In this document: in pieces, positions 5,383 to 41,500 of the stretch | Layout: each line of letters opens with the position of its first letter | Numbering within the stretch: the first letter of the stretch is position 1 | Assembly: GCF_963576615.1 (NCBI RefSeq) | Contig: NC_088714.1 | Location: 43,060,072-43,124,071 of the forward strand | Source: Watersipora subatra | Lineage: Eukaryota; Bryozoa; Gymnolaemata; Cheilostomatida; Watersiporidae | Direction of reading: 5' to 3' | Length of the DNA stretch: 64,000 nt | Program-made: the position numbers and the translations under genes | The notes under the pieces: model-generated | The model's database searches: none | What the model was told of the DNA's origin: nothing | What the model saw: the letters and a program-made list of their open reading frames with translations, nothing else

Positions 5383-5569
5383 TTAGCTCGACGAAATAAG
5401 TGAGTTAATCGTTGCAGCTGCACAACTGTAGGCTCTGGTCATTTCAGCAAACTCATCCTCAAACCTTTCACGCCAAAGAGACACGTCAGGAATCTCGTCA
5501 CAAGATGGGATGTTGAGGAACTCATCAAACATTTTCTCCCAGAGCTTGGAGGAGTAGTAACGGCTGTGC
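5383..5569 (-). CDS. BUB1: MADBUB exon 24: kinase C-terminus and stop
   Basis: Contains LWEKMFDEFLNIPSCDEIPD, matching the W-x-x-FF-x-x-x-LNI-x-x-C end of the BUB1 kinase. TAA stop at 5383-5385. Confidence 0.93.
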
Positions 5570-8500
5570 CTGTAAGAGAGAATTTTAAGGATATCAACTT
5601 GCCTAAGCCTAACTTTGAAGTAAAATGAAGGCCTTGAGATGTCAAGTTGTGAACTGGATAGGCAAATAAGTGTATGTGACTCTTAACCTGACAAGGAACA
5701 AAATGCAACATCTTTGCTTCTTGCACTTCAAATAACTTCCACAAAATAATACTCCATTTTCACATTTGAAGGTTCTCAAGACGAACATTACAAATTCTAT
5801 GCATCCGATAAGCTAGTGCAGGCAGTATATGCAGGCAGTATATGCCAAAACACCTATGCAAGACTCTAGCACTGTCACTCATTGTCACTTGTGACAAACG
5901 CATGCCAACACACCGATATTAGTACTCTAGCCATCTTTGCGAGGTCTTTGAACGCCCACTCAATGGTCTAGACTTAGTTTCAATAGATAAACATAGATTT
6001 CAGTTAATTCAACGCATAATATCGACTTCTTAATTTATTATATAAACAATACAATATGCTGCAGAAAATGAAAAACTCACCTGGCGGTTCCAAAGACTTT
6101 TCCAGCCGTCCATTTGTCATTTGAGCTGTCATAGTTGACCTTCATATAGCTAGCAAAGAGCATTGTATAAACTGTGCCGAGCACCCCAAAGAGGTCAGTC
6201 TGAAAAATTCACACCATGGCACCAATTGTGTCATTCTAACAAGTAAGATGTGACAGAAAGAGATCAGAACTATAAAAAAGCTAAAACACCAGAGCTCCAA
6301 ACTACCGTGTAACAAAAGGGGAAGAGTAATAATCTCCTACCTGGTATGTCCATGGTCTATCAGTTTTCATTTCTACGCAGATGAATCCTTCAGTTTCGTT
6401 GTTTGCAGTAAATGTTGTTCCCGCAGGAAACTTCGAGATATCTATGCTTCGGCCATAGTCTATCAGCTTGATGCTGCTTGTCGCGAATGGAGTTTCCTCA
6501 TCTACTTTAGGACTGTAAGCAACCACAAAATAGTAGAGGAAAACAGCCAGCGAGTCAGCCATGGCTTTCGTGTCGTTCACTGACTTTATGATCATGTGTT
6601 GCTTGTCTAAGTGAGTCTTCTCAAACAATACCATGCTCTCATGATCATGTGTTGCTTGTCTAAGTGATTCTTCTCAAACAATACCATGCTCTCATGATCA
6701 TGTGTTGCTTGTCTAAGTGAGTCTTCTCAAACAATACCATACTCTCATGATCATGCCCTGCTTGTCTAAGCGAGTCTTCCCAAACAATACCATGCTCTCA
6801 TGATCATGCCCTGCTTGTCTAAGTGAGTCTTCCCAAACAATACCATGCTCTCAGGTAGAAGTTAAAACTAAGAGGACAATAAACGAATGACTTATGAGTC
6901 TGACTTAATGACATACAGTGAAACATTTTCTTATAAACACCTTAATATCCAAATCTTTGAATATGTGACACAAAGTTCGGCAGCAGTTCTTGATACACCT
7001 GAGGCAATTTCCAGAGAGGTTTCAAAAGCATTGTCCATGTCACACTATGTTACAATGTATCCCCTCTTTCACACCTGCTAACCCTTCAATGGGCCACCTT
7101 TCAAAATTTTTCATCCCATGGGAAAATTAATTTATTTTATTTTTTTAATATGCTCCATGTTAACTACTTTGGTCATCACTTAAATGCAGTTTGTTTGATT
7201 TCTATGAACTCAAATGAGAACTGCAGTAAACAATTCTTTACAAAATGATACGAATAATGCCTAGATTACATCAATATATATTTGTATATGAATAACGCCT
7301 AGATTACATCAATATATACAAATAATGCCTAGATTACATCAATATATATGAATAATGCCTAGATTACATCAATATATATGAATAACGCCTAAATTACATC
7401 AATATATACAAATAATGCCTAGATTACATCAATATATATGAATAGTGCCTAGATTACATCAATATATACAAATAATGCCTAGATTACATCAATATATATG
7501 AATAGTGCCTAGATTACATCAATATATACAAATAATGCCTAGATTACATCAATATATATGAATAATGCCTAGATTACATCAATATATATATGAATAATGC
7601 CTAGATTACATCAATATACAGTCAAACATGGATAACTCGAACTTCAAGGGACCGAGCAAAAGTGTTCGAATTATCAGAGCGTTCAAGTTATCAGAGCACT
7701 GTCACAAGTCCATGTATTTACTTATTTATTAGTAGATACATGTACATATACAAACTATAATATAAATCAAAAGCACAAATGGCTTGTTTCAAATTAAATG
7801 CTTCTAATGTAAAGTTTAAAACGTTTTTATCAAAAAGTATAGAGATTTTTCTATCACTTGAGATTGGTTTGTTGTTTGAGGTGATGTTATTGCCAGGACG
7901 TTTTTTTAGATTGACATTGGCAAAACTTGATCGTTGTTGAAATGCTCAAAAGAAAAGACATCTTTTTCTTTTGAGCGTTTTACCCACGATCAATTTTGCC
8001 GACTTTTCTTGAAGTTTATGCAACTTCAAGAAAAAGTTACCAAAGAAAAATCCCTTACTTTACCTGGGATTCGTTAAGAGCAACACTCCGAGGCAGTTCA
8101 ATTAAAAGTTTTACGAGGTTTAACGGTACATTGTATATCACTCACGCTTATTGAATGTACACACGTATTCTGTGTTTAGGTCAAACGATGAATAGTTTTT
8201 TTTAGCTAAGACAACGTATACGTTTAGTAAAAACAATTTTAAGACGTTTTAAACATTCAACATTCCGACGTTGATTCAACACGGAATCAACGTCGGAAAA
8301 CTATTCGTCACGGGCTAGCCGGGTCACGCACTCAAGGATTTTCGCCACGCACATACAAAACAACACGCTGTTTTTGTTTTGTATGTGCGTGGCGAAAATC
8401 CTTGGGCGCGTGACCCGGCAAGCCCGTGCTATTAATCGTATATAGCAGTGTAAATCAAATTTGACCAAACCTTTAGAAAAGTCGTTGACAAAATTATTTT

Positions 8501-11500
8501 GCCGATGGTGGTAATAACAACGCTTATGAATTACGAAAATATGAGGTTTACCTCTATGGCTTTGAATAAAGTGATTTTCTAATGCGATAACAACCGTTTC
8601 GGTAGCCGTTGGGCAAAAAAACAGTTCGAATTAACAGTGTTGAGTTCGAGTTATCTATAGCAATTTATCATTACGTGGGAACGGACCAAAGAAACTGTTC
8701 GAATAAACCATGTTTTCGAGCTATCCGTGGCCGAGTTATCCATGTTTGACTGTATATATACAAATAATGCCTAGATTACATCAATATATATATGAATAAT
8801 GCCTAGATTACATCAATATATATATGAATGTTTTGTCGCTGTTGTCATGGAAAACAAGGTTTTAGTGATGACGAGTGTTCCTGAGAGGGTTGATCTTCAG
8901 AATCATTAGAACTTCGCTTAGATTCCAAGTCACTAAGTTTAAGGTTTAAATCTTACCCACTTCATTCAGATCTGTCCATGAAGTGTTTTACAACCCGATT
9001 TGAAAACTTTAAAACGTTTAGATGGGTGACTAGAATGCTATTCAGGAACAGTGTATGGTATACTAGCATCAGAAGACACCTTTGTTACAGCAGGTCCATA
9101 TGCAAGTGATGTCCAGATCCTTTACTTAAAGTGGTCTCTTGTTTAACTCAGTTTGATATGTACTTCGATGTATATGAGAAGCTATTGTAAATAACTGCTT
9201 ACGCTGGAGAGTGCAAAATATAGATGACATAAATGTTTATTACACTTTCTACTTTCTCACCATGCTCTTCCATTCTCCTGTCTCTATGATGGAGTAAAAA
9301 TCAAAACTGTGTTTATAGACTAATATTTTATTAATTTAGCGTTAATTTAACTTTTAACGCTATGTGCAGTTACTTACAGTATTTACTCAATTCCGGAATA
9401 AATTACTCTATATTCCGATAGAGTAATTTGTACATATTTCATGATCACTTTGATATACAAAGCAGATAAGGTGATGAATTACTCTTAAATGTACAGGTTT
9501 GACTTCGCTGAGGGTTGGAATAACTAATAGAGGACACTCATTCCATGATAGAGATTTTTCCAGTAAAAATTTTGCCAGCGAACTTGATAATAACATGGCA
9601 TAGACATGGAACTTACAATCGCCAAGTGCTGAAGAAGCAAATGTACAACAACGACTTGATTAATTGATAATTTGTGATGAAGAATGGATACGACACTTCT
9701 TCGTCTAAAGCGCATTATAATTGCACACTTTGTACAGAATCATGTCATTTTAGTGATTTAGTCGACGTTTAATAACCAGAGAAACAAAATTAACAAATTC
9801 TAACTATTTATGCTATTATTATCACTGCTATTTGGGAAATACACCAAGCTCTACGACGTATTCTTAACACTAAACCTAATTTATTTGGACATCAAAAATA
9901 TTTTTTCATGAAAATTCATTGAATTGCTCGATGCCTCGATGTACTAACTAATCTGTGATGTAGTAATTTTCCCATGTAAAATCAGTGATCACCAAAGTTA
10001 GCATGTAGACTAGCAAGAAAATACTCACAAACCAATGAAGAGTACATTATCTGGTTTGATGTCTCCATGGATGATCTTACACCTGTGAAGCACTTCAATG
10101 GTATGGAGTAGCTCTATGGTTATATACATAACCAGTGATTCATGCAGCTAAAAGAATACAAATGGTATGGAGTTGCTCTATCATTTTGTAAACAGTTGAA
10201 CAGTGTATTCTCGATTTGAACTTTTGCATATCAAACTACAAATGCTCCGAGAAACTTATGAAGTTATATGTTAGAGGATAATCACTCAAATATTAGATCG
10301 TGTATTGGAAAACTGGTAGGTTAAACTGATTGCAAGTAAAGGCTTGGTTGTATATAACAGCATATACAGCGTACTCGGTTGTATACAGCAACACACGCAA
10401 CATATTCGTCGATGTAAAACAAATGAGCTAGGAAAAGATTGCGGCAACACACCATCATTCTTCTGGCCTTGGCCAAGTTGACAAGATTTAGGAGAGAGCC
10501 AAAGGGCACAAAGTCATTGACCATTAAGGAACCATCGCTATAGAAGACCGCAGGTGCGATATGCATCACCCTCGTCAGCTGAAACAATGAAAGTCCACGT
10601 AAAGAAGATTTTACCCCAAACTAACGAAGCAATCTGTAAAACATGAACAAAATTAGACAAACAACATACCTACTTGACGTACAGGCTGCCAAGTAAAATA
10701 CCAATTAAAGTCTCTTGAAGTCAAAGTATAATAAAGTATTAGAACTAGAGAGTCTCCTGAAGTCAAAGTATAATAAAGTATTAGAACTAGAAAGTCTCTT
10801 GAAGTCAAAGTACAATAAAGTATTAGAACTAGAGAGTCTCTTGAAGTCAAAGTATAATAAAGTTTTAGAACTAGAGAGTATCTTGAAGTCAAAGTATAAT
10901 AAAGTATAAGAACTAGAGAGCCTCTTGAAGTCAAAGTACAATAAAGTATAAGAACTAGAGAGTATCTTGAAGTCAAAGTATAATAAAGTATTAGAACTAG
11001 AGAGTATCTTGAAATCAAAGTATAATAAAGTATTAGAACTAGAGAGTCTCTTGAAGTCAAAGTATAATAAAGTATTAGAACTAGAGAGTCTCTTGAAGTC
11101 AAAGTATAATAAAGTATTAGAACTAGAGGGTCTCTTGAAGTCAAAGTATAATAAAGTTTTAGAACTAGAGGGTCTCTTGAAGTCAAAGTATAATAAAGTA
11201 TTATAACTAGAGTCTCTTGAGTCTTCATGAAGTTTGCCGTATAATTCCTACTATTATATATTTTGAATAAAAGAAATGATGACAAAGATTTTGGTCTGAT
11301 GAAAACATCTTCTTCTAGTCCATTAACAGGATATAAGCCATTGCAAAGTCTACTCACGATATCTCTATCTAAATCATCGTCCATGCATTGCATGCGCTCT
11401 CTCAATTCTCGACAAATGTATAACTCCCACGGACATGCCGGCTTCTGCATCTTAATACAGACAGGGTGAGACTTGATGTATTGTGAGCTCGTAGTCAAAC

Positions 11501-14500
11501 CTGCAACAGCATAGTGTCACCTTATAACCTGCCACGATGCGTGACGACGAAGATATTATGGCATTTTACTACGTTATAAGATTTTACTAGCTAAGTCTAA
11601 GGCATAACATACTATATTCAGAAGTGACAGACGTCTGCAATGACTTCTCTGATTGCAAGATAGTTGCTTTGTATGTGGAGGCAAATCCTCCTTGGCCTAC
11701 AAACACACAGAAGAGAGTATACAATAAACTCGTTTGGGACCCTATGTGGTTCCAAATGTACCACATTGGAGATTATTACACGCGTCATTAATCTAATGAT
11801 GCAAACAAAATAATTGAAATGTTTTGTAAAAAATTGTCTACCAATCTTGCTGACAATCTTCAAAGTCAGGCCGGACAGAGTCATCTTACTTCCTACTTTC
11901 ACTTTTGGCATAGCATCGGGAAGTACCTCAACTTCCTCGTAAGAGCTGAGGTCAACCTGGAGAGTCCAATATTAAATGTCATTTAAAGGTTAGTGCTAAC
12001 CATAGACCTATTAGCTATACTAAGTATAGTTAATAAGTCTATGGTGCTAACATAAAGAAGTATAAAATAAGAGTAAGAAAAACAGTTTTATCGCATTTAT
12101 TGAGCAAGTACCATTTAATGTCTTTGGAACCGCTCATATGAAAACATAATCAATTTACATTATAACTTTAGGTTAGAAAGCTATCAGCCTAGCAGTACCT
12201 CTGCGGTGACACACCTACAGTAACACTCCTGCAGTAGCGACACGCCCGCAGTAATACCTCTTTGGCGACACACACACAGTAACACTTCTGCAGTGACACA
12301 CTCACAGTAACACCTCTGCACGGACACATCCACAGTAACACAACTGCAAGAACACGCCTACATTAACACCTCTGCAGTGACACAGCCGCAGTGATACCTC
12401 TGCAAGGACTCGCCCCCAGTACCACCTCTGCAAAGACACGCCCACAGTAACACATCTGCTGTTATATGCCCTGTAACATCCTGTTAGCATCGTGACGTAC
12501 CTTCCGAAGAAGCTTGGACTGGACAGACTCAGAGAAGGGATTACTCGGGTCTATGAAAACTGTAGTATTAAGTTGTGCTTCTGTCAGCTCTGGTGGCTGA
12601 TAGAAAGTTGAATCAATTATTGGCGTGGCCTTCTGCAGTATCTCTCCACTCTCCTCCTTGACCACATCTAAGACATGCCAATCATTAAAGTGAGCAGCTA
12701 TAATCCACCAAACACATGACATCCATTTTAACGCTTGAATGCCTGAAAATTACCCAAGCAACCCTACCATGAAAGCACAACTCCCCTCCATAAAATTGAC
12801 TGACCCTGAACACTTAGCAAACTGAAAAAGTGATTGGGTTATCAAATCCAAGTTCTATTTTTATAGCATTCAGCAACACTATCAAAAAGAGTGTTTCAGT
12901 GTGAGGAAATATGAATTGATATGTAATGTTTAGCCCTTTCTATAATTGGCCTCTCACATATAATCTTTTCTCTCTCTCTCTCTGATTGTCTATGATGCAA
13001 TAATTTTGCTCTGATTGGTCTATGACACTTATTGCAAATGGGCTGACGCCCCACTGAAATCTAGTCACTCAGCCTATAGTCACTCAGTCTATCGCAGTTG
13101 ATGAAAATTAGTACTAACCACATAAAGTGAATGTATTCCAAGCAGTGCTTATTTCTACGTTTATTAAATAAGCCAGAGTGAAAGAGCTGTTTGTGAGTAA
13201 GTTTTCACCCGAAATCAACTGACAACTAAATATTTCGTTCACTCCATTGTCTGACTCGAAAAACACATGAGTAAGACTGCTTGCTTGTTTGCCTTGCAAA
13301 TCACCTTCACCCATGTAATCTTTGATGAACGGATAAGCTAGTCGAGCCATTGTTGTTCTTTTCTGTGTCTAGTTTTCAATCAAGGAATTTCGAAGGTTAT
13401 TAGCCTTCGAATTGAGCTATTAGACTTTTGGCCTTCACCGCCTTTGCACCGTGTTATGATAATAGAACCGTGATCGTTGGAAAAATCCACAATAATCTAG
13501 GCGTGAAGAATGCAGTGCGAAGCAGAGTAAAATCGCTGATGTTCACGTAGAATATAAACACTGAAGCCAGAGATGCAGTGCAGAGAGTACATCATCCTGT
13601 TTCAGTTAGCGTTTAGTGAGATAGCATGACTAGACTTGCTGAAAGAAAAGCAACAGGATGAAGAATATGAACGAGTGTTTGACAAAAAAAGGGCAGTGTG
13701 AAACAGGAGTGCAAATCTTACCGAGTTCATGAAAGGATAATCGTGCCTTTGACTTGCTCTGCGCTAAGGATGCTTCCGAGTTACTGTCTGTAGCGGCAGC
13801 GTTGTCCGATTCACTACCACCATGGCAACGAGTCCTCATCATATCGGAAGTGACCTTGGTCAGACATATGTTGCTACTGCTAGAGCAGACTGCATTAGTG
13901 ATTCCCATTTGGTTAGAGCCATCAGAAGAAAATGTGCTACGACTGGCTGAGACAGACTCGCGGCTCTGCTCACAGATAGGACTACAATGCAAGCGTTGGC
14001 ACATGATTATTTATAACTAGCATTAGGTAATGGTAGGGTAGTCCATGGCAGTACATGGTAGTTTATGATATTTCATGGTAGTCCACGGTAGTTCACGGTA
14101 ATCCATGATAGTCCACGGTAGTTCATGATAGTTTATGGTAATCCATGATAGTACATGGTAGTTCATGATAGTCCAAGGTAGTTTATGGTAGTCCACGGGA
14201 GTACATGGTAGTTCATAATAGTCCATGGTAGTTCATGATAGTACATGGTAGTTCATGATAGTCCATGGTAGTTCATGATAGTTCATGGTAGTCCATGATA
14301 GTTTATGGTAGTTCATGGTAGTCCATGATAGTCCATGGTAATTCATAGTAATTCATAGTAGTCCATGGTAGTTCATGATCGTCCATGGTAGTTCATGATC
14401 ATCCATGGTAGTTCATGATCATCCATGGTAGTTCATGGTCATGCATGGTAGTTCACGGTAGTTCATGGTCATCCATGGTAATTCATGGTAGTCCATGGAA

Positions 14501-17500
14501 GTTCTTGGTAGTTTATGGAAGTCCATGGTAATCATTACAGTAAACTGTTGGTAATTTATAAATCTGAATGAGTCTACTGCCAACAGTTCATGTATTATTA
14601 AAATGAAATATCTTGCCATCCTCACGCAACGTAATCAAAGTAATTATGATACACTAATGCATTACCTGATAAAATAAAAGCGAACAACAGTAAATATTAC
14701 CTACTAAATTAAAATCAATTATTTTATGTATTATTTAGCAAAGAAAAACTAACCCTCTGTACGAATGAAAATAAAAGTAAATCTATGCATCTCGTGTATA
14801 TATTTATGTATTAATTATCATGTCAAGGTAATCCTACTCAAACCACCAAATGTCGCTTGTCTACAAATTAATAGGCTCTCAATGCGAATACTTTGGTCAT
14901 ATCAGTAACTTCTGGCTAATACTGGATGAGCAATGCATAAAAGGGAGGTAACTGCTAGAAAAGCTACTTTCACTCACTAGCTTTCATTCTATCAACTGAT
15001 AGATTTAAAAGAAATACAACCTCATTCAATTTTAATGATAATATTATTACACCGTATGTTTTGCTATGTGTGTATAAATTAGTAGAAATATAACATTAAG
15101 CAAAATAAAGATATAGTTATAATATTGATTGAGTTAAACAAAATAAATGAAAGCTTAGTTCCTACTCGTTAAGGCATGATGAGGCCCACATGCGCAGTAG
15201 CACTGCTGCTACTGTAGAGGTGCTGGGCCCACAGGAATTGGTAAACTCAAACAGCAGGTCTGAATTAATCTAGGCTTAACAAATGGCTTTTAACATTATT
15301 TCTAAAACTAGTAAATGCAGGGGTTTTGCATATCTATTGAAAGACTGTTCCAATGTGATGGTACTCTGTATTCGATTGTGCTTTAACCTGAAGCGGTATA
15401 AAATTATGGTAAAGGTAAATGGGCTTCCAAAGATCTGGTGTTATAGTGTGAATCTTTCTTGGTTTCGTCACTTGAATCAAATTTTGAATGAGCTATCAAG
15501 AAAATTTTATACAGGTAAAGTTTATCAACAGGCAACACAGACAGCTGAACAAACAGGGACCGAGATGAAGTAAGTGGTGGTTTATTGAACATTATGCGCA
15601 TTAGACATTTTTGTAATATTAGTATTTTTTTAAACAACAAAATGGAGCATTTCCCCATGACTCCAGACAGTAACTAATTTTTGAGTTAATAAATGCGTTG
15701 TATATTAGTTTCATAACACTTCTGGGTAACTTTTTACCCAGAAGTGTTATGAAACTAATATACAACGTGTTTATTAGCTCAGAAATTAGTTACTGTCTGG
15801 AGCCATGGGGAAATGCTTACCCAGACGTCATACAAATTTTTACCAGACTAAATTAATAAGATGTGGTAGACCCATCCTATTATTTAGTCATCGGACATTC
15901 CTGAAGCCCTTTCGGAACAAATTTATACTTTGTTTACCTTTGAACAAAAATGGTTGCCCCAAGTACCTGGTGCATCTCTTGAAATGTTTCACATGACTGC
16001 AAGAACAGACCAATTCATTGTGAGACTAGCCTCTACTCGGACAAAACCTAACGCATTTAGTAAAGCTAGTACCCTGGCAGAGATCGTCAGGTGTAGTAAC
16101 TAACCGCACAAGTATTCCCAACAGTGGCAACGCGGTCGATTGGAGGTGACTCGGCTACTCAACACGCTCTTATTACAAAGGCCTAACAACACAACTATCA
16201 TTATTTGATGTCAGTTGTGTTTTCTATACCCAGAGCCTAAGTGGCTGCCAGAGCAGAAAGAAAGCTTTAGAATGTACCTGAGCACTTGAGTAGGAGCAAA
16301 GTCTATTGGAGCTATTGAGCATCTCTTAGGGACTGCAGATGCTTCACTCTGTTTAATTTCACTGATGCTTGGGCCTGAGAGTTGATTTTCGTTTCCAAAA
16401 GGGGTGGAAGAAACGATGCGACTTGCTTGATTGAAGTTAGCCCGTATCTCCATATCCGTTTGCAAATCAGCGCTGTCTGAGCCTGACATCAGCCTGCTTA
16501 CAATAATTGACAATCTATACGTATATTTCTCAGAATTTGTGAGTATGTGTGAATATGTCCGGCTATAGATATTATTATAGAATTATAAATATTATAAATA
16601 TTATTAAAATATTATAGATATTAATATCTTGGAATTGAAATCACGAAACCACCGCAGGTTTGACACTAAATCGTCTAACCACGAGTCTACGAAGACTCTT
16701 ACGTTTGGTAGCTCTTACTGTATACACCCTTTTCCCTATTTCATACGCTAAACGACAGATTAATTGAAACTCAAATAAGTCTATGAAACACAATGCTGTT
16801 TTGTGTTTTTGTGAACTTTTATTTCCTGTTTTTCGTAAGGTTCAATTGCTGAATCGGTCAATGCTAATACTCTTCACGCGGACAATTGTATTATCGAGTA
16901 AGAATAGCTTCTACATTCTCTCTCCGTTCGGTCAAAAAAAGTCAGATATCTCATTTTTACATTTGTACCAGTATCGAGAGGCACCAGTATCGCCGTATTC
17001 AAAGTTTTGAGAGATAGCTTCTCTCGTAGAACAGTAACCTTTTTATACACACACACACTTCTATGCAAGACTTGTTATTATTAATTCCACATATTCAGGA
17101 TTTTTATTTTGTTTTCTCAGTTCGTATTAATTGTATCATTACCGAATCATCTTTTATTGTAATCATAGCAAATCAGACTAAATTTAGCTATTACTTGCTA
17201 ATTATTTCACATTAACATTTAAACACTTGTATAGTTGTTTTATTTTGTTTCTTAATTTATTTGACCTGCACAAAACATTTCCTCATGATCTGAGGTTTGA
17301 AAACCTTTCCAGTTTTTTTTTCTTCTCTTTTATTTATTTAAACCTCACAAAACAGTTTTCACATGATATGAAGTTTTTCTGTGCTAAGACCTTTATTACC
17401 CGGGCACCGCTGGGTAATAAAAGTCTTCAATAATAATTTTTTTATATATAAATTAACTAAATAAAAATCCATTCTCTTCAAAAAACCACCTCAATAGAAT

Positions 17501-20500
17501 ATTACAATTGTAAAACATGCTTTTAATTGACCTAGTTCACCATCTACGCTCACAAAGTAATAAATGCCTATCTAGTGGTTTAGTCTTTATGATCTGCAAT
17601 AAAATGTAACATTTATTATGTACAGACGGTAGTGGCTAACAGTGGTGAGATGGAGATTTCACGGCAACACTTTCAGCATGTTGCACTTTAGTGAGACGAA
17701 CATCAACTTTGAACTTAACTTAAAAAAGAATTTAGCTTACTAAGCACACGCTTGAAATTAAGTTTTCTTAAACAAAACTTGATTCTAATTTTGTCTTCGT
17801 TTTCAATTTATTATTATCTCCCTTTCGGCTTGGCTCTTTTTCTCTTTTTTCCTCATTTTCGCCTTCACTTTTAGTCGGCCTTTTTAAAAAGTTTTTTACA
17901 CTGATCCGACAGGAAATACCGAGTGATGCTGTTCTTGTAAGCGGCCTCTCAGCCATACTCAGTCATCTAGCACCCGCATCGAGAACTGTCTCGTATGCTC
18001 GTATCTCAAATTTGTTTCATATCTCCAGGCAAACGTTTGCTAGAAATTTTTCTCGTATTTCAAACTTCTCATATGTTGGGAGACTAGTATGTCGAGGTAT
18101 GATTGTAATAATATTAAAGCTATAAACAAGCCATACCTGGACTTCAGTGTAGGTGGCTTTGGAGGCTCATTCTCCTAAAGAAAATAGTTGAGTCTAACAT
18201 CAATAAATACAACAAGCCTTAAAGGAGGAGATGAAGGGGAGAAAATGGGTGAAGGAAAGGAGGTGGGTGAAGAGTAAAAGGTGAACGATACGGAGAAGGT
18301 GAATGATAAGAAGGTGAATGATAAAAAGAAGGCCAATGAAGTGCAAAACCATTTCTAGAATTGAAATCGCAAACACACTAGGTGATTTTACAGGAGGAGC
18401 AGGGAGATATCGATGGCATGTACTAAAACACACTCGGACGATTCACCAGTGAGCGGTAACGCGAGCACGCTCGAAAGGAGCCATTAAAATTTTATATCAA
18501 AAGTTTCTTCGGAGTCGGTAATGAATTTAAGTAAGACAACGACGTATACAACTTTTGCTTGAAGCCGCTATCTCATTCTTATGAATTGCACACTACAAAA
18601 AAACAATGATTTTAATATTTTTAACTACAATATTTAACAATTTTTATATATAATTTACTTTATACTAACATTTAATTTCTAATATAATAAATATTTAATA
18701 TTCTCAAAATGGTCAACTTTTTATTTAGAAAAAACAACCAATCGAAATGCACCTCTCATCCAATAAAGTTCTGATTAAGCAAGTCTAGCATTATCGCTCA
18801 GCATCAACTCGCTGGGAGAATTCTAGCACTACGCGACACAATTTAAGATCTCGCACTACATATCGCCTAGTGTGTATGCGCATCTACTGTCACGCTCCCA
18901 CCTTACAACCTTTTAAGAATTTATGCCAAACTTATGTAGTAAATAAATGCAGTGATGAATGGGAGTGCAGAAAGCTGGTAGGTGTGTTGGACAAGCATAA
19001 CGAAATGCTAAGACCAAGCTTGTGAGAGTTATCTCCTCAAATCAGATCCCTAATAAAAATGAGCAAAAGAACTGTAAATAACCACTGCATGATAATAAAG
19101 AGTTGAATTTCATACAGACGAATGTGAGAACATATGAATTTTTGATAGATGTTTGTATGCCATGACAAAGTCCTTGTTCACCATGCTTTAATAACCAAAT
19201 ACCAAATCTCTAAAAGTAAAAAGTCAAATTAGGGCTAATATAAGACAACAACGTACCTGGTTAGGGTGGGGTAAGACACGCACACTCTTGGAGGCGTGAT
19301 CAGGCCCTGGAAAGTCTTTATGAGATGACGGATCTGTGAAGACAGAGAATGGGTTGCCCACCGACTTATGTTGCAGTGAGTGACTACCCAGGACATTCTC
19401 TGGCCGTTTGAATGCTGACAATGGTTTTTCAAAAGCCCCATAGTGTGGCAGCTGGTCTGAAGCAAGTGCAGGCTCACGAGCATCAGTATGAGGTGACATA
19501 GCACTGACAACTTGCGATGGTGCTGCAGTAACCTCCATTGGAGGGTCTTCAAAAGGAGCATCGGTAAATATGGTGACGGGTGCCTCAGAAGGAGCATCGG
19601 TAAATACGGTGATGGGTGCCTCAGAAGAAGGAGCATCGGTAAATATGGTGATGGGTGCCTCAGAAGAAGGAGCATCGGTAAATACGGTGACGGGTGCCTC
19701 AGAAGGCGCATCGGTAAATATGGTGATGGGTGCCTCCTGAGCTGGAGGTTCATGGACAGATTTGTGCTGTTCTGTTTGTTCCGTATAAATAGAAAATCTA
19801 CAGAAAAGTTAAATAGCACCATAAACTGAGCGGAAATCCATCGGAACCAAAAGCTATTGTGAGTAGCAGTACAGCTCTATACAAGTTAAAGGTAAACTTA
19901 AACAAAATGTTAGTAGATTCTATCAGAAAGTATCAGTATTTTTCTATTTTTTGTGATTGTTTTGATGTTTGAGATCATCTTACTACCAGGATGTTTCAAG
20001 ATTAAAATTGACAAAACTTGATCGCAGTTAAAACGCTCAGAAGACTACATGACAAAATGACATCACTAGTTGCACGGCTGACTGTCTCTATCATTATTGA
20101 TATCAACTATTACGTTTAATTTGCAGCATTACGTGGCTATATTCTGTTGGTCTATTTGCCGAGAGCAACTACAGACTGTGACTGAAGAGTGACAGCGCGA
20201 CTGAATCACACTTTCACTTGAATCTGAGCGGCTTAATCGCAAGCAAGCATAGTCGATGTTAATCGACAATGACTAATCTGAGCGGCTTAATCACAAGCAA
20301 GCATAGTCGATGTTAATCGACAATGACTAATCTGAGCGGTTTAAAGGAAATTTGATGGAAATGATAGAAAAACACGGATACTTTTTGATGAAATCTACTT
20401 AAAAATTGTGCAAGTTTATCTTTAAACTCTCAAAGACTCAAATGACTGTACAGACAGACAGACAGACAGATAGTCTGTCTATTTGAGTCTTCTATAACTT

Positions 20501-23500
20501 ACAGTCATACCTCGACATATGAGCTTAATGTGTTCTGGGACTGAGCTTGTATGTCAACTTACTCAGTTTACTGTTTGGTACACTAAACTTTTGTGACCCT
20601 ACGTAACAGAAACATTGAATTTAACTTAAAAGAATTTAGCTTACTAAACACACACTTCGAGCTAAGTTTTAATCTTTAACTAAATTTACTTTGATTTTGT
20701 TGCCATATTTATTTAGTACCTTTTTTCTGTTTCAGGCTTTTGCCTCGCGTATACTATAATTTTTAGCCAACCTTAAAAATTTTTTTTCAAACTGATTCGT
20801 GGAAAAATACCGAGCGATGCTGTTCTTGAAGGCGACCTCTTGCATACTTGCCCATGCATATAGTGTAATGGCCATCGAGAACTTTCTTGTACGCTCAATG
20901 AACAAACGTATCTCGTATCTCAAGGAACAAACATGCTAGAAAGTTAGCTCGTATCTTTAGTTTCTCGCGTGTTGGGGCACTCGTTAGTGGAGGCATGACT
21001 GTACTGAATACTCAATTCATAAAAATTTGCCTGATTTTACCAACAAGCTTGCTTCATTAATAACAAAGCAACAATATTATTCCACTATTTGATGATCCGC
21101 TACATATGGCCCATGGTTCACATGTTATCAACGTGTCTCAAACTGAGACTAAGACAAAGTATTCACAATTTGCTTGAAGGTAAGAAACTAGTTTAATCAT
21201 CAACCAAATGATTGGCTAGAAATTTTCCATAAGCCAATCATTTCCAATCTATAATTTAAACATTTGCAATAAACTAGACACTTGTTGTAAAATGATAAAT
21301 CTTTTAAAGCATTTCCTCAATAGCTGCGATGTAAACATTGTCTAAGGATAATTGAGTCAGTCGTACTGATTGCTTTGCTGATCCTGGACACTGCAAGTAG
21401 CTTCATCAGGAACAGAACTAGCTGTCACAGCGCCTGCTCCAAGTGTCTGGTTAAAGAAGCCATTAATGAGACGAGCGCAGTCCTGGGTGACGGACAGAGG
21501 AGAGTTCTGCAGCAAACACCAGACACATCAGAGCGTAAATAAGGCTGCACCACTAAATTAGCTTTAGGGCTTAGCTCTTAATGGCCACTGTATTTTCCGT
21601 AGCGACTAGTTCTTTGGGCTACAACTGCCTGAATACTTGGTTTGCCAATTTTGCGATACAACAACTGTAGTATTAATGGTTTGTATTGAAAAAGCTTTTT
21701 AATACTTTATCATATCAATTTTACTCGGTTTATGATTGATGATTATGGTAATTTTACAATAAGTTGAGGGGGTACGAATGAGTATAACTGGAGTGGCTCA
21801 GAACCTTGTCACTTGACGGGGGAATTTTCTGAGTTTGTCACATGTCTTGCACATGCCCAGTTGCATTGAATTTTAATTTAATATTATACATTTTAATTAA
21901 TATTAGACACTTGCCACAATGCTATATTCTATCACAGCAATATTGCAATAACCCACTACTAATAACCCAATACTGTTAAGAAATATAAGATAAGATATTA
22001 TGCAAAAATGTGCATAAATAGTTGCAGAATCTTGCATAAGATTATTGTACACACAGAGGTATTTGGAAAATGTATAGAAAAATAGAGAAATGTACAAAAA
22101 AAAATATAAATCTCGAAAAAATTGGTAAGATTTGGCATAAGATATTAAGTATTAGACAAAAACATAAAATTCCCCCGTCACGTGACGAGGTTCTGAGCCA
22201 CTCCAGTTATACTCGTCCAGGGGGTACACGCCTTCAATGTCAACCTACATTGGTTATTTTTAATTTTTTAGAGAGCATTGTCTATTCTACAAAAGAAAAA
22301 ATATTGCAAAATATTTTGTATGTCTAAAATAAAGTAAAACAAAAATATACCTTCACTGGACGTTTTAGGAGCGGTGTGTGTATGCCCAACCATTGCCAAA
22401 GTTCAAGGTTAGGATAGGAAATAGCCTTCGATGAAACTCAAACTCGTAACATTAAGCTTGCTATATCAACACTCACATGCACGCACCAATAGACCGCCTT
22501 AAGCACCTATTTCTGAATAATTGCGCTGCTACTTATTTTCTGTGTTTTGTCGACACGCCTGACAATCTTCAACGACGAACTAGATTGCAAGGGTACGTAT
22601 AGAGAGCCCCATACATATGTAGCTTTCTCTTTCAAGTTTGGTAAATGATATCACTATTTTTAGAGCTAACTACGATATTCTTTTTATTCAAATCGAATTT
22701 GGAAAATTTGCACAGACTTAACACTACATTATATGGAGCTCTTTACGCTGTATGAAGCAAAAACTCGACCAACTTTTTTACATTATGTGAAATTTACGTT
22801 ACAGGAGGTGTACGTTACATGAGGTGTACGCTACAAGAGCGTCTACTATACTGGTAAACTGTTATTACTTTAATTATAATATATCCTATTATGTTATTAC
22901 TAAAACTGTTAAATTACAACATATATTTTTCTTACTTATGCTAATAAATTCGCAGCAGCCAAAAATAAAACATGACATCATCAATTTGCTGTCCATTTAA
23001 ATTATTGTATGCAATATTGAGACTTTAAACAGTACATAAAACTAAGAATAATTATAGAGACTATCCAACCTTTAACTGTCAGCAAATACACTGTAATACA
23101 GTTATGATAAAATGCATCAAAGCTTATTATTGATTTCCAATGTGTAATAGAAGATTAAAATAACGACGAAATTGAATTAAACTTTATTATTTAATATTTC
23201 TTTTTCCTATGTATGAGGTGTGTGGTTAAAAATTATCTCCTTATCAAACATCAACATGTAAAACAGGGTGTGATACATACGCTGTTGTACATGTTGATGT
23301 ACAACAATATGTACTGTCGATGCACTGTACTGTCGATGTACAGCGTACGTATGCTGAATACAGAGTACGTATGCCGAATATAGAGTACATACACTGGATA
23401 TAGAGTACATATACTGAATATAGAGTACATACATTGGATATAGAGTACATATACTGAATATAGAGTACATACACTGGATATAGAGTACATATACTGAATA

Positions 23501-29500: not shown

Positions 29501-32500
29501 AGAATATGCTGGGAGATCAACTCTTGAAAGTTTAGGATTTTATATTATATAAAATCTACCAAGTTTTACAAACTGCTAGTTTTAGCTGAAATGGTACACA
29601 TGTTCACCATTTCTGCTAGAAATGGTGAACACTAGCCTGTCTTGACAAACTGTTGTTTTTTGCGGAGTTGTCCCCCGTCGAGCGGGCGAGCAACAACAGC
29701 TTGTCACAAGACGTACTGCACCTGATGCATCAGCTGTACTTATAGGGAGTTGTTCTCTTCCGTCTAAGCGGCTTGGCTGCAATGTTATGTCGGTCGCTCC
29801 ATTGGTAATCATAACGAATTTCACGCAAAAATTTATGTAGAAAAAATAAGATCACAACATTTAACCAAAGACCAGTCTATGTGGTAAACTTTATTAGAAC
29901 TTAAGAATAAAATTAATTGAAAATAAAATCAATAAGAACAAATAAAACTGACTGATACAAAAATAGAAATAAAACTGACTGAGCGCACAAATAATGACAT
30001 GTTTAGTCGCTGTTGTTGCCTAAGTTCTCAAATTCTACTAAAGTTTACAGCAGAGACCGGTGGCTAGTTAAATGTTCTTATCTTAATTTTTCTACATAAA
30101 TTTTTGCACGAAATCCGTTATGATTACTAATGGAGCGACCGACATAACATCGCAACCAAGCCGCATAGACGGAAGAGAACAACTCCCTTTCAGTGCAGCT
30201 GATGCATCAGCTGCAGTACGTCTTGTGACAAGCTGTTGTTGCTCGCCCGCTCGACGGGGAACAACTTCGCAAAAACAACAGTTTGTCAAGACAGGCTAGG
30301 TGAAAACGTGTACCCACAAACATAGGAAGAACAATCTCACCTCATCTCCAATGACTCCAAATCATGTGCTTTTCTAGCCTCATTGGATTTCAATGCATTC
30401 AACTCGTCACGCAACTTCTCTCCCAATTCACAAACAGACTTTGATACAACTTCCCGCAGTTCTACCTTCAACTGATCCAAAACAACGACCTTTTCCATAG
30501 AGAGTTCATGAGAGAACTGTTTGTATAACTGGGTGAGCTTAAACATTTGTTGTTCGGTTTCACCTTGCAATCGGGCTTGTTGGGTCTGTAGGAGAGTGGC
30601 TGCTTCTGCAATGATGCCAGCCGAAGATGAGCTTGTTCACATAATTTGCTTTCTTGTTTGGTCAACATTCTATGAGCTATTTAAACTGTCTCAGCTCATC
30701 TACACCACCCAGTCAACTAACTCTGAGCTGTTTATATTATCAGTTTCATCTACATTAACCTGTATACAATGAGGTGACAAGCTTTCATGACAGACACTTG
30801 ACCTCGTATAGTGTCGGTAAAAACTATTAATACTATTTCCCAACATTTTAAAGCTTTTTATAGCATTTCTCATTGGCTATAGCTTAGCATATTCCATCTT
30901 CAAAACTCTACAATAAAATTGACATCGACCACTTGCTTTTACGTTTAAATACTGTTCAACAAAAACAGTTTAGAAGATAAACTTACGACTGACAACTGTA
31001 ACTGAGAGGCTGCTGTAGGCTTGTTCCAGCAATAAATTGCTGTAGTATTAGTGAACTAGCTAATAAAACTATCTAGCTTTTGCTATTCATTTTAATAGAT
31101 AACTTGTCCTTGTAAAATAAATGACAGAGGGCCTAAGAAAAGGGAGATAATTGCAGAGGCAGAATTATGTAAATGTGGTGAACACCAGCACAATGTATTG
31201 CAGTGTCAAATTATCAAAGCAGGAAATAAACCGTGCCAAAAACATACAACCAAAAGTATGATAAAAAGCTCAATTTGCAAATGAATTTAGAAAACTATAT
31301 AAAATGGTTGCAGATGGACAGTAAAATTCATAGCATTCAAAATGCATATGTGATGAAGATGATACAGCAGATTGACAAAAATAGACTCCAAGAACTATAA
31401 GTAAGACATTCACTAGATCAGCTATCAATGTGTATACTAAAGTCTCTACCTTGCTCCTTCTTTTTCTCTTCCACTTCCTGATGCCATTTAAGAGCGTGCA
31501 ACTCCTCAAATGAGTATTCCATAACGCCAGCATATACCTTAAATACAAGTTCAAATTGACAATTTGTCGCGGAGGAGACAGCTGACAACATAGAGAGCGA
31601 GGATTAGGCTAACCAAGCACTAAAAAATTCCAGGTGAGACATACACAACTGACAAACAACTTTACCTACATGTAGTTGCTGACTAATCAGCAAACAATAA
31701 CTCATGATAGAGTTCAAGAGGAGATGCATTACCTTGGCTTTGTCATACATAGGAACCTCCTGTACGTAGTAGTCCCCTTGCTCTTGGTTAGTAAATAAAT
31801 GAGGAGCATCATCTCTCATCCCCTTCTTTTCTGCTTTCTTCACGCTATAGCGCAATGACATTAGTTTTTACCCAACAATTATTACATAAGGAAATCGGTG
31901 TGAATTATCTTGTAAAGGAGAAAATCATTAAGAGTAAAACCAGATTACACACCACCTTCTAGTCCTATATCGAACTCTCTTATGTTTTGCCACACTAGAG
32001 ATAAGAAAACATATTTTTTATTCATACGACAGCAGCGCAAATGAGGAGTCAATACACCATTGTGCAATAGACGAAAGAAAGACAAACCTAAATATAGCTT
32101 TGGCATAAATCAGATTATAAAAAGCTACCCTCACGTAGCATGGCTTTTACAGAAGTGGTGGGAACTTTATATAGTAATAACATTTTTCATTTCAATTATC
32201 AGTCTAACTGTAACCTACAATTAAATTCAGATACGACATCAAATTTAGGCAAATATTTGACTGCAAATCTAAAGTTATTTCCAGTTTCTAAAAACACAGT
32301 TTTGTAGATCAGTAAGTGTGTGTGCGTGTGCACGCGCAGTTCTCCTTCACATGGTTTGGTTGTACGGTGTTCAAATAACATCAAACAATGCTTCATATTG
32401 TTTTATGTTATTGAACTTTAATCATTTTAATAGATTAAAAAACCTCTGATACCAGAAGACTAATCCTAGTGATAGTAGTGATGGAAAGAAGGAAAAAGGA

Positions 32501-35500: not shown

Positions 35501-38500
35501 TATAATAAATAGTATGCTAATCGCACGACGTTCTTTCTTCCGCAAGTGCGGCGAAATAATTACCATTCAAATCGATTTTGATAACTCACCCGTCTTGACA
35601 ATTTGTTATATGGAGCTTTTTACGTAATAGGAAGCAAAAATGTCACAGAATTTTTTACACTATCTGGAATTTACGTTATAGGAGGTGTACGTTATTAGAG
35701 TGTCTACTGTATATCGTTTATATACCGTATGTCCTCGCATAGACGCTGACACTAGAACACAAAATTTATTGACAAAACTTAGGGGGTTCGTCTTATATGT
35801 GCGCAACTTTGATTGAAAGCAAACAAAATGACATCACGCTAACTTAATTTTAACAACTCAATCCTTTATTAACTCAACTTAATTAATTAGCATAAAACTG
35901 TACATCATCTGATGCCATAAAAAGGCCACAAATGTGTTGTAAAATCAGTTTGGACACATTTTTGTCCTCTTCATACTATCGTGGTGGACAAGTTAAGCAT
36001 GTTCCGGAGCCAGACGAGTTACCGCTATTACTATAGCTTACAGCATTATTATTACTATTGAAATCAATACTGTTACTACTACTATAATTGCCCAATAGAT
36101 AATCATCGCAAGTCCATCGATCTAAGATTTGGGAAGCCTACATAGCTGTAATGCTTCTGATCACCGCGAAGAACAAATAGCTGTAAAAATGCGCTTTTCA
36201 AAAGCTAAACTCAAGTCAACGTGAGATGCAAACATGTTTGACATTGGCTCAACGTAAACAGATGATTGTTTCCTTCCGATTAAGTGGATACTCGATACGT
36301 AAACTATACAACTACTCACCAATCAGAAACGTTTTGTACTAAGCTCACAAAAGCCGGCCCATTTCCACAACCTTCTGCTCTGCTAGATGCGTACGACGTG
36401 TTACGATCTGTAGGGTTGGTTTATATGCGAGTTCTTGTAAATTACTTGATTTTAGGACTGTTTTTCTAGGTTAGCTTACATATATGCGAGATAGGCTTAT
36501 ATACGAGATATATGGTAAATATCACCTGGGCTACATCTCCGTTTGCTGTCTCAAGCTTGATAGTCAGATGACAATAAAAACTTTTCAGGTTCAGTGATAT
36601 CATATAAATAATTTAGTTGTTGGTTTACAGTTTTGGGTACTGCATTACTTTCCATGCTATATATTATATATATGTATTGCTCCATTATACATGCACCATT
36701 GTATATTGGAGCAAAGATTTCTATAAGAATTCATTTTATAGCGTTTAATTCATTCCACAATTTCAAACTTAATTCAAAATGTATATATATATATATATAT
36801 ATATACATGTCTATATATTCATGTAGAATTGCCCGTAACAGTTTTTCATTAAGTTTTGAAGCTGAGCCACTGATTATTAGGAAACCACGACACCTCTAAG
36901 ACAAGCTTAAAAAATTTAAGTAACCAGAATAGTAACCTAGCCAAAGTGCCACGCATGAAAAATAACTTACCTCAAACCAGTTCCTGCACCCAACAATGTT
37001 GTAGATTTAGCTGATGTAGCTGCTGTAGTGGCATCCTCATGCACATCAAAGTTGCTCTCTTTGCATCTCTGCGCTGAAGGGACAGTCGACGTCGATGTTC
37101 TATAGAGCTACCAAAAACCATGAGTAAGTTGACAAAGAGAGATGAAATCTGAACAATTTATGTTTAGCTAGATGGACTCTTATAAATAAATGAACCAACA
37201 AAGACAAGATAACTGACAAAGATAAGATAACTGACAAAGATAAGATAACTGACAAAGATAAGATAACTAACAAAGACAAGATAACTGACAAAGACAAGAT
37301 AACTGACAAAGATAAGATAACTGCAAAGACAAGATAACTGACAAAGATAAGATAACTAACAAAGACAAGATAACTGACAAAGACAAGATAACTGACAAAG
37401 ACAAGATAACTGACAAAGACAAGATAACTGACAAAGATAACTGACAAAGATAAGATAACTGATAAAGATAAGATAACTGACAAAGACTAGATAGCTGACA
37501 AAGACTAGATAATTGACAAAGATAAGATAACTGACAAAGATAAGAGAGCTGACAAAGATAAGATAACTGACAATGACTAGATAACTGCAAAGACAAGATA
37601 ACTGACAAAGACTAGATAACTGACAAAGATAAGATAACTGACAAAGACAAGATAACTGACAAAGATAAGATAACTGACAAAGACTAGATAACTGACAAAA
37701 ATAAGATAACTGACAAAAACTAGAGATGCCTCGATATTAAATGCAAGAGCTGATCGAGCTGATACTGTTGCAAGGTCGTTTCTTTTATTTCAGAAAATAT
37801 TAATGGAATATGCATCTATTAATGGGTTAGTTAATTAAATCCTAGTGCGTGATTGATAGCAGTAATAAACCTCATTTAAAATGGCATTGCAACTCTATCA
37901 CTCATATCGAAACTAAAACGCATAAATTGTTCACTAAACCTAACAGCTAGCATAATTTAGACTAATGAAAGATCATATATTTGTATGTTAACATTATTTA
38001 TATTTTTTGCATTAAAATTTGAAGATTATAAAACATTAAATTATTTAATTATCATGCTCAGTCTAATCATTCCACTTTCATTCATTTTTGGCCTCCTATC
38101 AGTTCCACCTTTTTTCTTTCTGATGACTACTAGAATCGATGTCTCTGCTTTCCAATTATTTTACGTTTAATTAAAATGAAAAGCATTGCCTTTTATGCAA
38201 CTATTACCACTCGTACTCACCTCCTTAGGAGCTATGATTATTAGAGTAGACGAGATTTAGTAGAGAATGGTACGAAGCAGTATTTAGTAATATTGTAGCA
38301 ATGTAAAAGTTAGAACCAACTATTTGCAGGAGAACTGTCTACATTGTCCACATATGCACCAATTTGTCAACCTGCAGTATTTCTATAACCTTCAGAAGTT
38401 GTATGTTAGAAATCATGTAAAATGATGGGAGCAAACTTTGCTCAAAATGAACTTTACGTAGTATGCCAGAAATCTGCAAGCAGATGTGAGCATCTGATGA

Positions 38501-41500
38501 GGTTAAACTGTATACTTATATGACCTATTACACGTTTTGCATGATTCAGAATATTAACCAGTTGTAATAAATCGCTCCAAGTCACACTTACAAATTTCTC
38601 ATGTGGCCATGTTGTTATTTTAGTAGGCAAGCGGATCCTGGCTAATATAATTGGCATGCTGAGTTATTCATATGAATACTTTGTTCCTTATTGTTCCATT
38701 ACCAATTAGTAATTTGTTGCTAGGGTGAAATTCCATCAAATCTCATGCCTAGGTACGTCTCGAAATGTTTGATAAGCACGCATCGATCAAAGACACTTAC
38801 CGTCTCACTTTTATTCCACTTGCCAGCAGCCAGTTGATTCTCTTTAGCATTTGGTAGAACAGACTGTTTAGAAGATTGACCTTGACCTAGAGACTGACCT
38901 TGAAGTGGTAAATGCTGACCCTTGTCATTCTCATCAACAAATATCTAGAAACAGTAATGAATGAAAGAAGGAGAGTTCACCTACTTGACCTCCTATACAT
39001 TTGCATGCAAACAAGTTGATTTCAACACAATATTATGAAAGAGTCAGAGTGAGGGAGTCGGCGTGTGGGAAATCCCACAAGCTTCACACTAGTAAGAAAA
39101 CTTGCAGAAATTGACAAAGTAGGCTATATGAGTTATGGGCTTTAGAAGCCTGTAAGTAATGAGTCAGTTTCTGTAGGAAATATAGACTACAGCAATCCCT
39201 CCCTCTTTGCAGGGGTGGCTGCAAAGTTCAAGACCTGAGAAACGCGAATTTCTGTGAAATAAAAACTGATATTTTTCTAAGTATGAGCCATAATTTTTTA
39301 CCCTTCTTAACACTTAGCTGCTTTCCAAACAATTACTAAATGCATGTCCCTCTACATACAATATACTTGTATTGTATGTTTTGTGTCATTGCATATTACA
39401 AAACATAAATTCGTAGGAAAATAACAAGAACTGAACACCAAAGAATAACTTGGGTGAGAATCAAAGAGGTAAAGTTAGTGCTAAATACTTTTGAACCAAT
39501 CAGTGCCAGGATAGTAGAACGATGGAAAGTGTTTATTGGCTATTCTCTGTAGATGAAGAAGGATAATTGGTCAAATTCCATTCAATTGTTGAAAAGTGCT
39601 CTAAGCTCTTGTTGGAAGTGATTATACTTTTATTGCTGACCGCAACTAGTCAGTTGAAATGCCACTTTCATATAAGGTGCGTTCCACATTCATGACCTGT
39701 TTTGCGCAGATTGTGTGAGTTTTATGGATACGCAAGGGATTTGATTTTAAGTTTTCATTTCAACTTCTTCTCTCACAGTATTTTAAGCCAGAGCATGTAT
39801 TCATGCTTAAGTATAGAATTGTTCTAGTTTGAATATTAATGATGATTTAATTGATGATTAATGTGATTAATTGGGTTCATTGTGAGAAGGAAATGACTTA
39901 TTTGCAAATATGAGAGAGGGGATAACTCTCAATTGCTACAATATGTAATTCATAAACAGATTTAGTAATAAGACGAAGGCAATTAAAAACTTGTGATACA
40001 ATGCAGACATGTGTAGTTGAAGCCGCAAAGTAAGAGGGATTAATCTATATTTAGATTACTGTAATTCCTCGCTACTTCGCGGCTCACCTTTCAAGATTGC
40101 AGTGGTTCAGCGAATTCTCGGTTAAACAATGTTCCTTAGAAATGAAAGAAAATTAATTAACATTAAAACAATTAAATGCACAAATATACATACATGAAAT
40201 ACAGTTACAAGCACGTGACTTCCTTTTCACACCAAATCTAGTTAACCATAAGTACAAATATTCAGACCAGATAAAATCCAAACTTCTTCAGCTTACAATA
40301 CTGAGACTTATTTGAAGTATAATCTGACAGTCAGTCAAAATAACTTCAATTTACTTACCTATTACATAGGAAATAAATACAATATGTTTAGACAGCGGCT
40401 TAAGTGTTCTGGTATTAAAATTTAGCTTGCACATACACTAAAAACTAGTCTCTATTTGGCGGATTTTCACTATCGCGAGGGATGACGGTCACCATGAACT
40501 GCGAAAAGTGGAGAATTACTGTAGACAGTTCAATATTTTTACCTGAACAAAATAAGCCTAAACTCGCTTGCTGATGCATTTGTCTTGCCAATGATAAGAC
40601 AAATGCTGCGATGAAATAATGTTAGTAAAGCAGATCTTGTGAATGGCTTTCACCTAAGTTGCCCTTGAGAAACAACAATGCTGAACAAGCTATCTTTACT
40701 CTCTGAATCTAGTTATTGATCTAAGAAACTAGTACTAGTACCCTAATAGCGTGCTCTTCATTCCTTCCAACTACTATCGAGTCTACTATTAAAAATGGCA
40801 AGCACATGACTATTGTCAACACATGTACACAAACTTGCCTCATGCTTGCTAAATACAGTCAAACATGGATAACTCGAACTTCAAGGGACCGAGCAAAAGT
40901 GTTCGAATTATCAGAGCATTCAAGTTATCAGAGCACTGTCACAAGTCCATATATTTACTTATTTATTAGTAGATACATGTACATATACAAACTATAATAT
41001 AAATCAAAAGCACAAATGGCTTGTTTCAAATTAAAAGCTTCTAATGTAAAGTTTAAAACGTTTTCATGAAAAAGTATAGAGATTTTTCTATCACTTGAGA
41101 TTGGTTTGTTGTTTGAGGTGATGTTATTGCCAGGACGTTTTTCAGATTGACATTGGCAAAACCTGATCGTTGTTGAAATGCTCAAAAGAAAAGACATTTT
41201 TTTCTTTTGGGGTTTTACCCACGATCAATTTTGCCGTTTTTTCTTGAAGTTTATGCAGATTACCTTACTTTACCTGGGATTCGTTAAGAGCAACACTCCG
41301 AGGCAGTTCAATTAGAAGTTTTACGAGGTTTTACGGTACATTCTATATCACTCACGCTTTTTTAATAGATACTTATTGAATGTACACACGTATTCTGTGT
41401 TTAGGTCAAACGATGAATAGTTTTTTGTAGCTCAGACAACGTATCTGTTTAATTACAACATTTTTTAAGACGTTTTAAACATTCAACATTCCGACGTTGA

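Follow-up and report, generated by a model that had tools for sequence, protein, structure and literature searches.

In BUB1, the CD1/CMI segment holds Mad1, while the ABBA motif that follows CD1 binds Cdc20 between WD40 blades 2 and 3, and both contribute to the catalysis of C-Mad2:Cdc20 formation and the mitotic checkpoint complex (MCC) (PMC7614552). Human ABBA peptides bind Cdc20, the Ile-first ITVFDE more weakly than the Phe-first one, and the ABBA in the C-terminal half of human BUBR1 has only a minor checkpoint role (PMC5179498); its loss does not weaken the checkpoint (PMC5204127). ABBA repeat arrays are reported from Physcomitrella (moss), basidiomycetes and stramenopiles (Tromer et al. 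2016, PMC5204127), and in yeast the copy number and strength of MELT motifs set checkpoint strength and responsiveness (PMC7292645).

Here we describe an ABBA-like array in the bryozoan Watersipora subatra. The window, meaning the whole stretch of DNA analysed, is 64,000 nucleotides long (NC_088714.1, positions 43,060,072 to 43,124,071); coordinates below are window positions, and all exons and motifs given lie on the minus strand. The arrays of Tromer et al. 2016 are alike in placing several ABBA motifs in a row in a disordered part of a MAD/MadBub protein. The examples in the text of that paper are non-animal, whereas the Watersipora array consists of near-identical 36/39-bp units with Ile- or Val-first motifs preceded by Pro, and lies directly after the CMI in a protein retaining KEN1 and kinase. 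These earlier arrays overturn the statement, made in a preliminary description of this DNA, that no case had been described. Searches of the open-access literature turned up no paper evidently describing an animal ABBA array, and nothing on BubR1 together with bryozoa. To the known arrays we add an animal case made of near-identical units and, with sequences unrelated to it, arrays from two nemerteans, from a land snail (where KEN boxes accompany the motifs) and, provided that the motif may contain Cys, from an octopod.

The ABBA motifs of human BUB1 (CD1-ABBA) and BUBR1 (ABBA528) occupy the same site, in the interval between GLEBS and kinase and, in BUB1, after CD1; they share the consensus Fx[ILV][FHY]x[DE] with the two motifs that flank the Watersipora array, but the human proteins have one motif there and Watersipora has seven, five of them Ile/Val-first (PMC7614552, PMC5179498). 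The ABBA1-KEN2-ABBA2 cassette, whose human ABBA1 (ITVFDE) is Ile-first like the Watersipora units, is present separately in Watersipora (LQIFVD, KEN, FDVHED), the array lying elsewhere and without KEN. The MELT repeats of KNL1/Spc105 are likewise a multiplied checkpoint docking motif in a kinetochore scaffold, but the motif, the partner (Bub3-Bub1) and the protein are different, and an effect of number is known for MELT (PMC7292645).

Gene identity and exon layout

The gene extends from about 58174 to 5383, and the window contains most or all of it. A query of the joined exons (1196 residues) retrieves P0001, a 1379-residue 'BUB1-like' protein of W. subatra and the sole Watersipora protein among 32 matches (protein search with 7987 candidates scored). 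Pfam detects Mad3_BUB1_I (N-terminal TPR; 142.6 bits, cut-off 31.4) and Pkinase (50.7 bits, cut-off 31.7) in the whole protein, a BUB domain being absent from the scans of single exons; PDB matches include human BUBR1 (E 4.1e-65) and the BUB1 kinase (7e-53). Judged by its sequence, the gene is a BUB1-like MadBub kinase of the BUB1/BUBR1 family, as the preliminary description's 'checkpoint kinase' had it. P0001 contains KEN1 (position 14), ABBA1 (LQIFVD, 254), KEN2 (289), ABBA2 (FDVHED, 323) and a KARD-like LSPICE (882). Its GLEBS segment PMYDKAKVYAGVMEYSFEEL aligns with those of relatives, and the kinase residues K1108, D1210, K1212, N1215, D1239 and G1241 are among the invariant or nearly invariant columns of an alignment of 16 proteins. 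KEN1, ABBA1-KEN2-ABBA2 and the kinase domain are thus found together, and the combination of KEN1 and kinase in one protein corresponds to the undivided MadBub state of Tromer et al. (PMC5204127).

Exon 1 (58026..58174) encodes the start codon and KEN1 (KEN at 58135), and is followed by two TPR exons encoding Mad3_BUB1_I (47065..47744; exons 47744-47540 and 47261-47065). ABBA1 is divided (LQ/IFVD) between an exon ending in its first two residues (43097..43310) and one carrying IFVD and KEN2 (38801..38944; KEN at 38845). Three weak candidates for a separate exon encoding the first half of ABBA1 were ruled out, the LQ-ending exon joining IFVD directly in P0001. ABBA2 (FDVHED at 37050) lies in an open frame at 36970..37107, these positions being limits of the frame rather than exon borders. 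The GLEBS segment PMYDKAK/VYAGVMEYSFEEL is encoded by two exons (31450..31846; 31846-31733 and 31537-31450), followed by three linker exons with approximate ends from tblastn of P0001 (24237..30606; about 30606-30334, which is coiled-coil-like, 28797-28696 and 24344-24237). The CMI-like segment SPLSVTQDCARLINGFFNQTL is encoded at 21367..21506, immediately before the array exon. Beyond the array exon are two exons whose junction encodes the KARD-like LSPICEQS (13722..16493; 16493-16278 and 13981-13722), and the kinase exons through the stop codon (5383..11956), with the VCIK lysine, HGDIKPDN at 10069 and DYG. The exons from the CMI exon to the stop form a single open frame of 829 residues.

The exon model built from the window disagrees with P0001 at the junction after HGDIKPDNVLFI, where different acceptors are used; P0001 was followed there and for four linker exons (ABBA2 and the three between GLEBS and CMI). 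A 53-bp, 5-copy minisatellite (6588-6853) lies close upstream of the kinase exon with differing acceptors. Among the introns, one contains a 266-aa open frame on the minus strand (24943-25740) with a weak match to the hAT transposase dimerisation domain (21.1 bits, cut-off 21.4), and a 20-bp intronic minisatellite of 31 copies (23345-23963) is open in all three minus-strand frames.

The array exon and its minisatellite

The array exon (19257..19797) comprises 180 complete codons plus one base finishing the preceding codon, with AG/GT borders exactly at 19797 and 19257. Its translation is unchanged in P0001 (residues 619-798; 180 residues, exact match), and in the model fitted to that protein it is the 13th coding exon, not exon 12 as first numbered. 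It encodes FSIYTE (19779..19796), which by position is the counterpart of the single post-CMI ABBA of relatives, and then, as placed by the codon table, ITIFTD (unit 1, 19710..19727), VTVFTD (unit 2, 19674..19691), ITIFTD (unit 3, 19635..19652), ITVFTD (unit 4, 19596..19613), VTIFTD (unit 5, 19560..19577) and, outside the tandem array, FSVFTD (19332..19349). Together these ABBA-like motifs span residues 619-773 of P0001 (155 aa). The five central motifs belong to a coding minisatellite (19551..19736; TRF and codon table) of five units EAP[IV]T[IV]FTDAP[S/SS/F], whose starts are successively 36, 39, 39 and 36 nt apart. TRF, which is blind to the motif, places the array at 19549-19736, with period 39, 5.1 copies and 90% matches. 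The five copies are of minisatellite origin; both the seven motifs within some 155 residues of one exon and the 36/39-bp repeat had been read correctly from the DNA.

An assembly or gene-model artefact, giving a wrong copy number or an unused exon, is scarcely credible. Tandem repeats are prone to misassembly, and P0001 probably derives from the same assembly and is then not an independent witness; against this, all units are in frame, the splice sites are consensus, the reading frame would be lost if this exon (541 nt, phases 2 and 0) were skipped, and a 186-bp array should be short relative to long reads.

The consensus known for metazoan ABBA motifs, Fx[ILV][FHY]x[DE], is matched by two of the seven, FSIYTE and FSVFTD, while the units of the array, like human ABBA1, require a broader definition in which Ile or Val may come first. 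The Ile-first human variant to which the preliminary description appealed does bind Cdc20, though more weakly than the Phe-first one (PMC5179498), and Ile- or Val-first ABBA1 motifs are common among relatives. The excess of motifs over chance was assessed by shuffling the exon and counting the pattern [FILV].[ILV][FHY].[DE]. The array exon has seven matches against a shuffled mean of 0.092, a number reached in none of 20,000 shuffles, and with the array collapsed to one unit three matches remain against 0.063 (1 of 20,000 shuffles); the reversed motif has no occurrence in this exon. Outside the array exon the same test is weak, with two matches against 0.509 (293 of 3,000 shuffles) and three reversed matches against 0.479 (31 of 3,000). 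The MadBub-family protein of Watersipora carries a series of consecutive ABBA motifs larger than chance would give, and the shuffles, with the permutation test described below, bear out the proposed ABBA-type identity.

A very improbable alternative is that poly-SUMO binds the five units as SUMO-interaction motifs (SIMs), with P[IV]T[IV]F and acidic or hydroxyl residues after it. A SIM pattern of the ELM type fits every one of the five units. It fits neither FSIYTE nor FSVFTD, is absent from the ABBA-like motifs of the Lineus, Tubulanus and Argonauta arrays described below, and its single match in Bradybaena is unrelated to them; the ABBA pattern, by contrast, is shared by all of these arrays and that of Watersipora. 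Moreover, SIMs need no aromatic residue at position 4, which is TTT in all five units.

Motif positions 2, 4, 5 and 6 are identical codon for codon across the five units, and at positions 1 and 3 no residue other than Ile or Val is found. Beyond these Ile/Val exchanges, what separates the units is an inserted TCT, a single silent change and Phe in place of the last Ser. All four Ile/Val combinations of positions 1 and 3 are present, pointing to recombination, conversion or repeated mutation. A serious rival, although we consider it rather unlikely, is that the minisatellite is passive: slippage or unequal crossing-over would have amplified an ABBA-holding segment in which one or two motifs work and the rest are harmless passengers in a disordered linker. 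Tandem repeats are indeed abundant in this region (TRF; 33 merged arrays, which make up 9.1% of the window's bases and, within the gene, 10.0% of its span), the near-identical units must be young, and a selection test within the units gave no signal, retention of the motif being not significant (0.11 to 0.28 for two changes). However, by comparison of coordinates only one of the 33 arrays falls in a coding exon of this gene, and the one that does amplifies a motif class already known in MadBub proteins.

ABBA-like motifs after the CMI and in other animals

Many animal MadBubs have one or two ABBA motifs after the CMI. In most relatives the CMI reads SPTVNTKEA..V.GMFN.SL and is followed by an ABBA such as PFTVYDE, the place taken in Watersipora by FSIYTE; the Watersipora CMI itself has diverged (SPLSVTQDCA against SPTVNTKEA elsewhere). 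The array comes after this CMI-like segment and does not flank the KEN boxes, so that the setting around KEN boxes given for such motifs in the preliminary description does not apply to it. In the bivalve Mactra, a second motif, SAPITVFCD, stands soon after the post-CMI ABBA; it resembles the unit EAPITVFTD and may be the kind of single copy from which the array grew.

All five units score higher as ABBA3 (post-CMI) than as ABBA1, with a margin of 0.7 to 2.4 bits that comes chiefly from Pro at -1. The scoring scheme builds its ABBA3 class from 10 proteins, the remaining proteins being without a clear instance, and sorts 35 of 42 motifs correctly when each is left out in turn. Pro at -1 occurs in 8/10 ABBA3, 1/17 ABBA1 and 2/15 ABBA2 motifs, the Watersipora ABBA1 also having it; FSVFTD and the Mactra SAPITVFCD score higher as ABBA1. 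These scores weakly suggest descent of the units from ABBA3 rather than ABBA1. Placement in the ABBA3 region also bears on a negative role, in which the array binds Cdc20 (or Cdh1), competes with ABBA1-KEN2-ABBA2, and buffers Cdc20 or helps to switch the checkpoint off. Silencing of the checkpoint had been proposed in earlier work as one function of ABBA3, and ABBA3 may counteract ABBA1 and ABBA2 (PMC5204127). We nevertheless regard this role as improbable: in BUB1 the ABBA likewise follows closely on CD1, and there it promotes signalling and the recruitment of Cdc20 (PMC7614552), and an undivided MadBub joins both roles, so that the result for vertebrate BUBR1 may not transfer.

For a family-wide comparison, the region between GLEBS and kinase was examined in 17 of the 32 matched proteins, these being invertebrate by name or likeness; 14 vertebrate or fungal proteins were left out, as was Haliotis asinina P0006, a near-duplicate of P0005. 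The region was extended to the protein end in P0003, P0009 and P0012, where the kinase start was unrecognised, and given a default start in P0017, where GLEBS was unrecognised. In its true order the pattern has 48 matches and ranks first of 360 permutations; the others average 4.8 (sd 3.1), and the second-ranked order, with 24, departs from the true one only by exchanging the first and third position classes, which are almost the same. Three or more matches are found in 8/17 proteins (four or more in 6/17), and two or fewer in 9/17.

In the nemertean Lineus longissimus the CMI is preceded by six ABBA-like motifs, spaced 12-18 residues apart, and followed by FVIFDE; a second nemertean, Tubulanus polymorphus, has five, 15-25 residues apart, after the CMI. 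In the land snail Bradybaena similaris (P0011, residues 773-1021) there are seven ABBA-like motifs, in repeats of about 52 residues that combine two such motifs with a KEN box; the KEN boxes number five (at 810, 863, 914, 966 and 997) and lie between the motifs or close to them. In the octopod Argonauta hians (P0016, residues 558-682), six FxICED-like motifs carry Cys instead of F/H/Y at position 4, and P0009 has one FTICED; the relaxed pattern that admits them (Met/Ala at position 1, Cys at position 4) was chosen after the sequences had been seen, and the strict pattern gives 0 in Argonauta. No 5-mer of the Watersipora array is shared with the Lineus, Tubulanus, Bradybaena or Argonauta arrays, so that it was not the array that pulled these proteins into the search. 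One nemertean array precedes the CMI and the other follows it, and the other gastropods sampled (Haliotis, Biomphalaria) have one match, from which we infer, at the level of protein sequence, that the arrays are independent. Arrays of unrelated sequence, differently placed in different phyla, are unexpected under the passive-minisatellite explanation, in which any segment may be amplified.

The preliminary description took decay of units at key positions in relatives to speak against function. In the arrays of the other species, positions 3, 4 and 6 are mostly kept, but decayed units do occur: two Bradybaena copies (PFIYRD and VKVLCD) are without the pattern, two Lineus units have Met/Ala at position 1, and Argonauta has Cys at position 4. 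Two protein searches gave no relative from another bryozoan: the 23 matches of the alignment query are P0001, 15 further BUB-family proteins and 7 MRCK kinases, and a query of P0001 residues 1-200 matched P0001 only. A multiplied Bub3-binding segment is seen in Periplaneta americana P0015, where three consecutive GLEBS-like segments (PMYCKNKVYAGGIEFTFEELRAIEY, PKYCKAKVYRDGTEYSFEELRAIDY and PMYCKSKVYRGGTEYSFEELRAIEY) occupy alignment columns of about 430-590.

A putative Cdc20 dock and a possible role for copy number

We think it fairly probable that the array exon encodes a multi-site Cdc20 dock of the Watersipora MadBub, beside the Mad1-binding CMI. Several observations speak against a dock: the C-terminal ABBA of human BUBR1 matters little to the checkpoint, the Watersipora CMI has diverged, motif retention within the units is not significant, 9 of the 17 invertebrate MadBubs have at most two matches between GLEBS and kinase, units in other arrays have decayed, and the window abounds in minisatellites. 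Its parts would be FSIYTE, where relatives have an ABBA, the five tandem copies, and FSVFTD downstream, each predicted to fit into the WD40 domain of Cdc20 at its ABBA pocket. The WD40 propeller is large relative to the spacing of the units, which are 12-13 residues apart with 6-7 between motifs; simultaneous occupation of all neighbouring sites is therefore improbable, and these presumably weak sites would act mainly through rapid rebinding rather than by holding five Cdc20 molecules together. Rebinding would raise the occupancy of Cdc20 beside the CMI, the segment that binds Mad1-Mad2 in BUB1, and higher occupancy would help Cdc20 to enter the mitotic checkpoint complex where kinetochores are unattached. 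Checkpoint strength might then be dialled by copy number, as it is by the MELT motifs of Spc105/KNL1. The least certain step is that unit number is under selection, which we propose only tentatively.

The unrelated sequences of the arrays in a few other invertebrates hint that evolution repeatedly multiplies Cdc20 docking sites. It is possible, though we would not yet expect it, that animal MadBubs repeatedly and independently multiply Cdc20-docking ABBA motifs, whose number would be an evolvable and possibly polymorphic dial of checkpoint strength, doing for Cdc20 what MELT amplification does on the KNL1 side. Checkpoint strength is partly set by MELT number, and ABBA number, if this is true, would be a second dial. 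The natural arrays would then be ready-made alleles for testing what number of Cdc20 docks is required in a checkpoint scaffold, and nature would already have run the experiment in the lineages that carry them (the bryozoan, the nemerteans, the land snail and perhaps the octopod). Because its units are short, the Watersipora minisatellite could also differ from one individual to another and so offer a test of the dial idea within a single species.
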